From Rhizobium sophoriradicis (GTDB lineage Bacteria > Pseudomonadota > Alphaproteobacteria > Rhizobiales > Rhizobiaceae), in NCBI RefSeq assembly GCF_003939025.1, contig NZ_RQIH01000002.1, positions 62,001-126,000 of the forward strand: a DNA stretch of 64,000 nt. Reading direction: 5' to 3'. Positions 47,629-52,581 of the stretch are shown here, piece by piece. A program made the translations under genes and the position numbers. The notes beneath the pieces were generated by a model that had not been told where the DNA came from, made no database searches, and was given only the letters and a program-made list of their open reading frames with translations. Numbering within the stretch: the first letter of the stretch is position 1; each line of letters starts with the position of its first letter.

Positions 47629-49065
47629 TTATGCAGAGGCGCTTTCGGCAACCCCCTGCGTCTGGCCGAGCCAGGCGGCGCAGTCAGCAAGCGCGCGACG
47701 CGCGATCAACTGCCGTTTCATGATCGTCTTGTCCTTGCCGCGGAAACGCTTCACGCCCTCGGGCTTGACGATCGAACCCGGCTGAAGCTCCGGAAACAGC
47801 CCGAAATTGATGTTCATCGGCTGGAATGATCGTTTGCCGGGCTCCTCGTCGGAGACGATGTGGCCGCCGGTGATATGACCGAGCAGCGAGCCGAGCGCGG
47901 TCGTTGCCGGCGGCAGCAAGATCGCTTCGCCCTTGCGTTCGGCGGCGGCGAAACGGCCGGCCATCAGCCCGACGCTGGCGCTTTCGACATAACCCTCGCA
48001 GCCGGTGATCTGGCCGGCAAAGCGCAGGCCGGGCCGCGATTTCAATGTCAGCGACGGATCGAGCAAGGTCGGGGAGTTGATGTAGGTGTTGCGATGCAGA
48101 CCGCCGAGGCGGGCGAATTCGGCATTTTCCAGTCCGGGGATCATCCGGAAGATTTCCGCCTGCGCGCCGTATTTCAGCTTCGTCTGGAAACCGACCATGT
48201 TGTAGAGCGTGCCGAGCGCATTGTCCTGGCGCAATTGCACAACGGCATAGGCCTTGACTGTCGGATTATGCGCGTTCGTCAGCCCCATCGGCTTCATCGG
48301 CCCGTGGCGCAGCGTCTCGCGGCCGCGTTCGGCCATCACTTCGATCGGCAGGCAGCCGTCGAAATAGGGGGTGCCTTCCCATTCCTTGAAGCCGACGGTG
48401 TCGCCCGCTATCAACGCATCGACGAAGGCATTGTACTGCGCCTCGTCCATCGGGCAGTTGATGTAGTCCTTGCCGGTGCCGCCGGGGCCGACCTTGTCGT
48501 AGCGCGACTGATACCAACAAATATCCATGTCGATGCTGTCACGATAGACGATCGGCGCGATGGCGTCGAAGAAGGCGAGCGAATCCTCGCCCGTCTGCGC
48601 CTGGATGGCGCTGGCGAGCGATGGCGCCGTCAGTGGCCCGGTGGCGACGATGGCAAGATCCCAGTCGCGCGGCGGCAGGCCGGTGACTTCCTCGCGCACG
48701 ACGGTGATGAGCGGGTGATCGTGGATCGCCTTGGTCACGGCTTCAGAAAAGCCGTCGCGATCGACGGCCAGCGCGCCGCCGGCCGGCACCTGGTGGCGAT
48801 CGGCGGCGGCCATGATCAGCGAGCCCGCCATGCGCATCTCGGCGTGGATGACGCCGACGGCATTGCTGGTCGCATCGTCGGACCGGAAGGAATTGGAGCA
48901 CACGAGCTCGGCAAGAGCGTCAGTCTTATGTGCGTCCGTGCCGCGCACCCCTCGCATTTCATGCAGAATGACGGGAACGCCGGAGCTGGCGATCTGCCAG
49001 GCGGCTTCCGAACCGGCAAGCCCGCCGCCGACGACGTGAATAGGAGGATAGGAGATCGTGTTCAT
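47629..49065 (-). CDS. trmFO: tRNA uracil-54 C5-methyltransferase TrmFO (folate-dependent)
   Basis: A 478-residue FAD enzyme that makes 5-methyluridine at position 54 of tRNA using methylenetetrahydrofolate. The N-terminal [20 protein letters not shown] binds [23 protein letters not shown] is the family signature with the active cysteine. The C-terminal LLGHITGGH segment is also typical. Convergent with the membrane-anchored protein gene. Distinguished from GidA by length and the NSFRSDD motif. Confidence 0.95.
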
Positions 49066-49372: not shown

Positions 49373-49410
49373 TTTACATAGGCGCAAACCCTCTCATTGT
49401 GCAGTGCAAA
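49373..49410 (-). promoter_or_regulatory. Promoter of DUF1127 gene 1 with TTGCACTGCA motif
   Basis: Minus strand: TTTGCACTGCA (49410-49400), 19 bases after GCACTGCA, then TATGTA (49380-49375). The same element at the same spacing lies ahead of the sRNA at 50208-50397. The motif is palindromic around its centre (TTGCA-C-TGCA) and fits the T-N11-A shape of LysR-type activators. Confidence 0.5.
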
Positions 49411-49534
49411 TAAAAGGCGTCTGCCATGCAAATGTGCAATATGATGCTTCAGAAATAAGCGGTGAACATTTTTTGAGCGGACAAAGGAACCAGGAAGATC
49501 CTGTAACCGCGACGACCGTCGATCGCCGAAAAAG

Positions 49535-49608
49535 AAAACGCCCGCTGTGGTGCAGCGGGCGTTTTAATCTTGGAGGGATCTGCTTGGGAGGAAGCAGAAA
49601 CCTTTGAA
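49535..49608 (-). ncRNA. 3'-UTR small RNA of DUF1127 gene 2, with CCUCCC-loop hairpin
   Basis: Directly after the stop of DUF1127 gene 2 the minus strand forms CUGCUU-CCUCCC-AAGCAG (49597-49580), a 6-bp stem whose whole loop is CCUCCC, followed by AUCCCUCC and a strong terminator (AAAACGCCCGCT/AGCGGGCGTTTT, 49565-49535, then TTTTCTTTTT on the RNA). This is the layout of the alphaproteobacterial CCUCCUCCC (cuckoo) RNAs, which are processed from 3' ends of DUF1127 messages. Boundaries are from structure only. Confidence 0.7.
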
Positions 49609-49755: not shown

Positions 49756-50207
49756 GTTAAGCCCCTTTCCGAGGGTTTGATCTGCCAGCAGCCACCCATC
49801 GGCGCTGACCTCTATTTGATGGCCGGAATATATGTTGCGGCGCGAAGAACGAAAACAGCCAAGTTTTCAGGTCACCTATGCGAGATATGCAATGCTTTAC
49901 ACAATCTTACCGCACTCTGGTCAACGATTAGGCAAAGTCACTTGAGCGAATACTCGAGCTTTGAAGTGGCGAAGGGGCTGCGATGAGGAAAACCCGCCTC
50001 TGGCGAGTTGCGCGCTGGGCAAGTGATCCGGTGCCGGTTCGACAAGCCTGTCCGTCATTGCGTCTGGCCGCCGCAAAGCGTCGCGATCACGAATCCGGCG
50101 CCACGGCTTGATGCGAAGAAAAATCCGGTGAACCTTGTTTTCTCGGTGGCGCAGCGCAACCAGCCTCGAGGTGCTAACGCCTTGAACTTACGTAGTATGC
50201 CGTCATC

Positions 50208-50397
50208 AAATAAAACGCCCGCCGGGGGAGGATCCGGCGGGCGCATTATAGTGACTGGCAACTGGGAGGAGGAGTGTCGCCAGTCTATCGCGGCGCGCTT
50301 GGGAGGAGGAGTGCGCGGCTGCGAATCTCGTCACGGACAAAGCCATCCGCGGGCGTCCGGCAGTGCCGGGCCGGGGCGCCACCCCCGTGCTTCGATA
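50208..50397 (-). ncRNA. Three-hairpin anti-Shine-Dalgarno small RNA (cuckoo / alpha-r14-like)
   Basis: On the minus strand three hairpins each display a CCUCC loop. A (50317-50294): CGCGC / GCGCG, loop ACUCCUCCUCCCAA. B (50283-50255): CUGGCGAC / GUUGCCAG, loop ACUCCUCCUCCCA. C (50243-50216): CGCCCGCCGG / CCGGCGGGCG, loop AUCCUCCC, followed by UUUUAUUU, the terminator. The loops are complementary to the Shine-Dalgarno GGAGG. The build matches the rhizobial alpha-r14 (NfeR1-like) RNAs and the cuckoo RNAs of other alphaproteobacteria as I recall them. The 5' end near 50397 is inferred from a TATTTA element at 50409-50404; a shorter form starting near 50330 is possible. Confidence 0.75.
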
Positions 50398-50403
50398 TGT
50401 CGG

Positions 50404-50439
50404 TAAATAGTATGACTAATTGATATTTTGCAGTGCAAT
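50404..50439 (-). promoter_or_regulatory. Promoter of the anti-Shine-Dalgarno sRNA with TTGCACTGCA motif
   Basis: Minus strand: ATTGCACTGCA (50439-50429), 19 bases after GCACTGCA, then TATTTA (50409-50404). Identical core and spacing to the promoter of DUF1127 gene 1. The 214 bases from here to the next gene hold nothing else I can name. Confidence 0.5.
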
Positions 50440-50653
50440 AATTACATGTGAGATATGCCGATCGCGCATACCTCGTCCTTCATATGCTGATGTTAGCAGT
50501 TCCGACGTTAGCGCCCGGTTAACACCTGACCCAAATTAGACCAATGAGGAATTTGCATATTCAGCGCTGAGGCGTTTGCGAAGCTGCCTGCTGCGTCTAT
50601 AAATGACGAAGCCGCAGCGCCGGGCGAGCGTCGCGAAACTGAGGGGTGGAATC

Positions 50654-52496: not shown

Positions 52497-52581
<85 letters not shown>

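Follow-up and report, generated by a model that had tools for sequence, protein, structure and literature searches.

The window, a stretch of 64,000 nt from the genome of Rhizobium sophoriradicis, encodes an RNA that is a member of the known rhizobial small RNA (sRNA) family ar14, and ahead of its three-hairpin core lies a structured 5′ domain, conserved in the genus, which is the part that is new relative to the ar14 model of Rfam. As the best explanation of the whole, which we hold to be slightly better than evenly likely, this RNA could be a trans-acting ar14 sRNA that is activated by a LysR-type regulator, is cut by RNase E from a longer precursor, and originated from a DUF1127–ar14 transcript.

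The ar14 core and its relatives

Three hairpins with anti-Shine-Dalgarno (anti-SD) loops on one strand had been proposed from the letters of the sequence, and they were recovered here (Table 1): positions 50206-50331 of the minus strand fold into three hairpins at −57.8 kcal/mol (z −6.8), with none of 200 dinucleotide shuffles as good. Loops 1 and 2 contain CUCCUCCUCCC, i.e., the full anti-SD motif, and the third loop, that of the terminator, is AUCCUCCC(C), a truncated form with UCCUCCC(C) only, as had been read. The proposed alpha-r14 identity was borne out by the covariance-model search suggested along with it, as the Rfam ar14 model (RF02344) matched 50210-50329 on this strand with 108.9 bits against a cut-off of 58.8 (cmscan). 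Frames overlapping the ar14 region are present on both strands. The 58-aa frame with a GTG start on the strand of ar14 had no Pfam family match, and across 50 genus loci the distance from the promoter box to ar14 falls into all three phases (20/17/13, modulo 3); a peptide in the leader was therefore rejected and the leader was taken as non-coding, in line with the earlier statement that no coding gene lies on the RNA. Before the divergent DUF2157 gene, no known gene was found in the window ahead of ar14 on the same strand, and the present layout is not that of a 3′ UTR-derived sRNA, which would lie directly behind a coding frame in the same transcript.

Table 1. Features of the ar14 locus, in positions of the window
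Feature	Position	Strand	Description and basis
TGCG-N6-GCAT, variant of the LsrB motif TGCA-N6-GCAT	50455..50468	−	Sequence
TTGCACTGCAAAA element, probable LysR-type regulator site (predicted)	50426..50438	−	Pattern TTGCACTGCAMAA restricted to the locus
Predicted −10 region (TACTATTT)	50405..50412	−	Alignment conservation; by eye, corresponds to CTATAT in relatives
5′ domain, predicted to be transcribed	50330..50396	−	H1 50373-50386, H2 50357-50369, H3 50332-50351; alignment of 30 loci
RNase E-like site RN↓WUUC (AGAUUC)	50323..50328	−	Predicted cut freeing ar14 of ~120 nt; motif conservation
ar14 core	50210..50329	−	Three hairpins with anti-SD loops, the third being the terminator; RF02344, 108.9 bits; fold z −6.8
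DUF1127 gene #2, 48 aa	49609..49755	−	PF06568, 59.3 bits
3′ UTR of DUF1127 gene #2	49533..49608	−	Hairpin with UCCUCCC loop (49580-49597) and terminator (49533-49563); ar14 match of 33.5 bits, sub-threshold
DUF1127 gene #1, 48 aa	49166..49312	−	PF06568, 50.3 bits; second TTGCACTGCAMAA upstream, 49397-49409
trmFO (Pfam GIDA), presumed name; syntenic anchor	47629..49065	−	PF01134

In the part of the literature available for Sinorhizobium meliloti, NfeR1 is described as a 123-nt RNA from its own sigma-70 promoter, which represses at Shine-Dalgarno sites (PMC10746234), the silencing of mRNAs via its anti-SD loops being Hfq-independent. The window RNA shares with ar14/NfeR1 of this species the three hairpins, the anti-SD loops, the terminator and the presence of several copies per genome, and by analogy it should be an NfeR1-type anti-SD silencer covering ribosome-binding sites. 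In contrast to ar14/NfeR1, it has a conserved 5′ domain in addition, its promoter elements lie at a greater distance, its third loop is truncated to UCCUCCC, and two DUF1127 genes adjoin it. The designation "NfeR1-like" in the sequence-only reading calls for caution, as the sequence has a conserved, structured leader in the place of the directly adjacent sigma-70 promoter of NfeR1. Orthology of the window copy with NfeR1 is not supported at the sequence level, whereas another copy in the same genome (C4:29063-29184), which by eye has the motif TGCA-N6-GCAT and what looks like a promoter immediately ahead of it, appears to fit better.

Hairpins with CCUCCUCCC loops are also reported, in the available part of the source (PMC3927594), for the multi-copy RNAs RFMSmelA075 and RFMSmelA099, with three and four such hairpins, respectively, and "cuckoo" appears in the available text as a broader published term for hairpin RNAs of this kind. 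The window RNA has such hairpins and the multi-copy state in common with all of these, with CCUCCUCCC complete in loops 1 and 2 and partial in loop 3. It differs from RFMSmelA075/RFMSmelA099 in the hairpins of its 5′ domain, which are without an anti-SD loop; such a domain is not among the features described for these two RNAs in the available part of that paper (PMC3927594). The likeness to cuckoo RNAs that had been noted is sustained at the level of the locus, since an anti-SD hairpin RNA with a short DUF1127 gene as its neighbour, the definition of cuckoo RNA/CIN1 in the citing text available, was found at 50 of 50 loci.

The genome (6.66 Mb, 67 contigs) contained nine ar14 matches, of which seven exceeded the cut-off; the other two scored 47.3 and 33.5 bits, the latter being located in the 3′ UTR of DUF1127 gene #2 in the window. 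Among sampled genomes of the family, ar14 matched in 60 of 61 and exceeded the cut-off in 56. Single-sequence folding gave the copies on C43, C19 and C9 an additional hairpin at the 5′ end, its loop being of the CCUCC type, similar to the published four-hairpin RFMSmelA099 as far as the available part describes it (PMC3927594). A DUF1127 gene lies within 1.5 kb of one of the other six over-cut-off copies, C43 only, and DUF1127 linkage is a feature of the window locus, not of every ar14 copy. This C43 copy (L004, G000:C43:281540-281663), with its extra 5′ hairpin, stands 198 nt behind the DUF1127 stop on the same strand. The match of 47.3 bits (L008, G000:C8:56473-56581) is a degenerate ar14-like element with CCCCUC-type loops, and an ar35 sRNA (RF02346, 52.4 bits) is located ~1 kb from it.

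The conserved 5′ domain, its promoter and its junction with ar14

Between the conserved promoter and the start of the Rfam ar14 model, 67 nt in the window could form three small hairpins. Each of the 60 genus genomes had a match to at least part of positions 50190-50480 of the window. The 30 loci with the highest scores (L010-L039, where L010 is the window) were aligned, and 20 further loci from the same 60 genomes gave 50 genus loci, window included, with the matches listed for the ten genomes outside this set covering mainly the ar14 core. In the alignment of 30 loci, 16 pairs had 95.8% of their cells paired and six of them showed two-sided changes, and shuffling equalled this in 0 of 500 trials on four of five measures and in 4 of 500 on the fifth; because the structure was derived from the same alignment in which the pairs were counted, it is favoured over the slid controls. 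By itself the domain has no exceptional folding stability (z −0.47, with 60 of 200 shuffles folding equally well), and it is supported by covariation, not by energy. The loop of H1 is [A/G]UGGC[G/A], kept in its strict form in 45 of the 50 loci; a loose form occurs in 49 of 50 leaders (not in L142), but also in 31% of random 45-nt stretches. Pairing of a G-rich stretch of the leader with the anti-SD loops was rejected, as the minimum-energy fold keeps the hairpins apart. The interval of the sequence-only reading, which ran to 50397 and hence 68 nt past the Rfam model, did take in this domain, which that reading left undescribed.

A model of the 5′ domain (R1) matched 99 of 120 genus genomes at E ≤ 0.001, with scores of at least 58 bits in 65 and of 25-44 bits in the other 34. 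Outside the genus, no strong R1 match was found in two samples of 61 genomes, from the family and the order: two genus genomes in each sample scored 79 and 88 bits, and all others remained below 29 bits. The weak matches of 21-28 bits (in 14 of the 61 genomes from the family and in 8 of the 61 from the order) were taken as chance, those of the family being at no ar14 place among the matches listed. In the nearest genus (L146), R1 fits directly beside ar14, weakly (E 0.18).

Promoter, 5′ domain and core are 75-93% conserved in the 29 aligned relatives, and this conservation, together with the two-sided pair changes, makes it very unlikely that the window copy is a silent spare with little expression, even if only one of six ar14 copies in S. 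meliloti was reliably detected by Northern blot according to the available text.

The ar14 promoter, with a LysR-type-like box (TTGCACTGCA), lies upstream of the 5′ domain. The pattern TTGCACTGCAMAA occurs twice in the 6.66 Mb, both times at the window locus (the backwards pattern once): one occurrence is in the ar14 promoter, the other ahead of DUF1127 #1 (49397-49409). In the available parts of the sources, TGCA-N6-GCAT is the published LsrB motif, with LsrB activating NfeR1 in S. meliloti (PMC10746234), and GCAT-N3-TG-N3-T is the published VtlR-type box (PMC7486931). Across the 50 loci, the VtlR-type box was found upstream of DUF1127 #2 in 50 (within 260 nt), of DUF1127 #1 in eight and of ar14 in one, and the exact LsrB motif in 35, one and 14 (within 190 nt for ar14), respectively; the window ar14 has the TGCG variant instead of the exact motif. 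GCAT/TGCA-like boxes, here predicted sites, are thus located upstream of ar14 copies and DUF1127 genes as they are in the LsrB/VtlR-activated genes (NfeR1, AbcR1, Atu1667), and by this analogy the window copy might be regulated by LsrB. In the genome, GCATNNCTGCANTGC occurs seven times, five of them ahead of other ar14 copies; the remaining two matches (C11, C66) were set aside, with no Rfam match over the cut-off and no DUF1127 in the fetched stretches, and look like coding sequence.

These elements bear on whether the window simply contains an ordinary primary ar14 of ~120 nt, with a promoter directly before 50329 and an upstream conservation that reflects regulatory DNA only. We consider this unlikely: it would suit the 123-nt NfeR1 with its own sigma-70 promoter, the other copy in the genome that by eye has that layout, and a leader which is not unusually stable as RNA, but the 67 nt ahead of ar14 show covarying hairpins, and the conserved elements that resemble a −10 region and a LysR-type site sit beyond these.

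A processed RNA, as we prefer to read it, would have to be released at the junction. The sequence AGAUUC there agrees with RN↓WUUC, which we take to be the RNase E consensus. Counted within −12 to +10 of the ar14 start, the motif is present at 49 of the 50 genus loci (L027 is without it), compared with 7.2% of random 22-nt stretches, although this AU-rich motif is not independent of the alignment because it overlaps the start of the Rfam model. Beyond the genus set it accompanies 10 of 11 ar14 copies that come first, 30 of 36 that follow DUF1127 and 20 of 25 that follow a further ar14. Four of the tandem second copies (L148, L150, L175, L176) have a −10-like CTATATT or CTATCTT at their start, resembling a primary start, and two of them count as motif matches only because TATATTC fits the motif. 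The near-invariant motif at the junction also argues against an uncut RNA of ~187 nt as the mature product, in which the 5′ domain would be a second functional module, for stability or for protein or RNA binding via the [A/G]UGGC[G/A] loop; the strict loop, which persists in 45 of 50 loci while the stem pairs change, speaks in its favour, and we regard this reading as distinctly improbable.

DUF1127 genes and synteny at trmFO

The two nearby DUF1127 genes that had been pointed out, as in other species, proved to be a constant of the locus: the order ar14–DUF1127–DUF1127 on one strand, both genes downstream of ar14, is found at 50 of 50 genus loci including the window, and DUF1127 accompanies ar14 in all 44 ar14-bearing regions of other genera. 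The anchor behind them is presumably trmFO rather than gidA, judged from its length. DUF1127 #2 has CCTCCCA at most 50 nt from its stop in 32 of 50 loci, and a second clade of the genus has a different hairpin in this 3′ UTR; for DUF1127 #1, none of the 50 has CCTCC up to 75 nt from the stop. The hairpin in the 3′ UTR of DUF1127 #2 could give a mini anti-SD RNA. A match to MmgR/suhB at 49524-49599 was discarded (34.6, below its cut-off of 41). Plasmid records matched in 28 cases, and the 20 of 28 listed all lie over the DUF1127 #2 region. The window also contains a tRNA-Leu(tag) at 52497-52581 on the plus strand, and many fetched regions of relatives have a tRNA near the trmFO locus.

According to the available text, RNase E takes part in releasing the CcsR RNAs of Rhodobacter sphaeroides from the ccaF1 transcript, ccaF1 being a DUF1127 gene. 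CcaF1–CcsR1-4 and the window have in common a DUF1127 gene linked to anti-SD RNAs, and maturation by RNase E, described for the former, is predicted for the latter. In the window, however, the RNA precedes the DUF1127 genes; the CcsR1 model (RF02791) scored 34.5 on the window against a cut-off of 65.3. A literature search, not exhaustive, found no paper treating DUF1127 together with NfeR1.

A trmFO match was obtained in 59 of 61 family genomes, and the upstream region was fetched in 54, each of another genus, with two genus genomes and three matches at contig ends left out and the regions of L164 and L168 being short. Upstream of trmFO, ar14 over the cut-off was present in 44 of these 54, always on the trmFO strand (72 copies). 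On that strand, DUF1127 came first in 33 of the 44 ar14-bearing regions and behind the first ar14 in 11; seven regions had neither ar14 nor DUF1127 and three had DUF1127 only. Where ar14 follows DUF1127, the stop codon lies 1-15 nt before it in 28 of 36 cases. Linkage by chance was gauged with 26 loci recruited by weak R1 matches, none of which holds DUF1127. Three or four tandem ar14 copies stand behind a single DUF1127 gene in L158, L164, L167, L170 and L179. No DUF1127 remnant was recognised by eye in the ar14 leaders inspected.

The promoter box connects both arrangements. The box TATTGCACTGCACAAA is located ~94 nt (L154) and ~102 nt (L156) ahead of a DUF1127 frame that has ar14 behind it, and in the 11 ar14-first loci TATTGCACTGCACAAA precedes the ar14 leader in nine, with a variant in L149 and none seen in L152. 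Named genomes with the box gave at least 118 stretches, in which ar14 was called by a motif rule rather than by Rfam and on the box strand only. Among the 118 listed, 90 are ar14-first, nine DUF1127-first with ar14, seven DUF1127 only and twelve neither, counts that express co-occurrence and not frequency because the box itself selects the loci. The ar14-first stretches listed include Rhizobium (41), Sinorhizobium (6), Ensifer (9), Shinella (5) and Ciceribacter (4), besides one Pseudohoeflea and one Agrobacterium that are outside the tree described below. The nine DUF1127-first stretches listed are from Hoeflea (8) and one unnamed Hyphomicrobiales, so that Hoeflea is DUF1127-first in 8 of 8 and Rhizobium ar14-first in 41 of 41; six of the seven listed with DUF1127 only are from Phyllobacterium, and the twelve with neither comprise eight unrelated bacteria, probably chance, and four incomplete stretches.

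In the TrmFO tree, the window falls into a ten-row group (94/82, just under the tool's star) in which nine members are ar14-first and the tenth lacks the locus. On this tree, no fewer than five changes are required for the ar14-first label (shuffled mean 11.1), of which starred branches force two. A single loss of the leading DUF1127 is not established, since five changes are needed, many forks are unsupported, the root serves for drawing only, and three ar14-first genera with more DUF1127 genes (L153, L183, L188) lie outside the group of the window. The spread of the DUF1127-first arrangement and its occurrence in R. sphaeroides suggest that it is probably the older state.

Proposed processing and origin of the window RNA

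In the mechanism that we favour, a LysR-type regulator (LsrB/VtlR by analogy) would activate the promoter at about 50405-50468, the RNA would start near 50396, and a precursor of ~187 nt would end at the terminator. A cut by RNase E at the conserved AGAUUC could then release the ~120-nt ar14 from the 5′ domain with its three hairpins, and the anti-SD loops of ar14 would block translation by pairing to Shine-Dalgarno sequences. The gene itself might be derived from a DUF1127–ar14 transcript by loss of the leading DUF1127 frame, with promoter and processing site retained, and the window ar14 is thus perhaps 3′ UTR-derived in ancestry, not in its present layout.

We tentatively extend this, with a confidence somewhat short of even, to the passage of a 3′ UTR-derived sRNA into a free-standing gene, in which the Rhizobium/Sinorhizobium clade would have lost DUF1127 and kept the LysR-type-like promoter and the RNase E-like site, and the resulting gap in Rhizobium would have become the 5′ domain with a functional [A/G]UGGC[G/A] loop.

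How free-standing sRNA genes originate is a general question on which the trmFO locus bears. Given that a single syntenic locus occurs in both a coding-first and an sRNA-first state, with a shared promoter element, among named genera that can be cultured, the loss of a frame with retained processing is testable. For the Rhizobium copy, the likely limits of the transcript are altered, which is relevant to probes, deletions and target searches.
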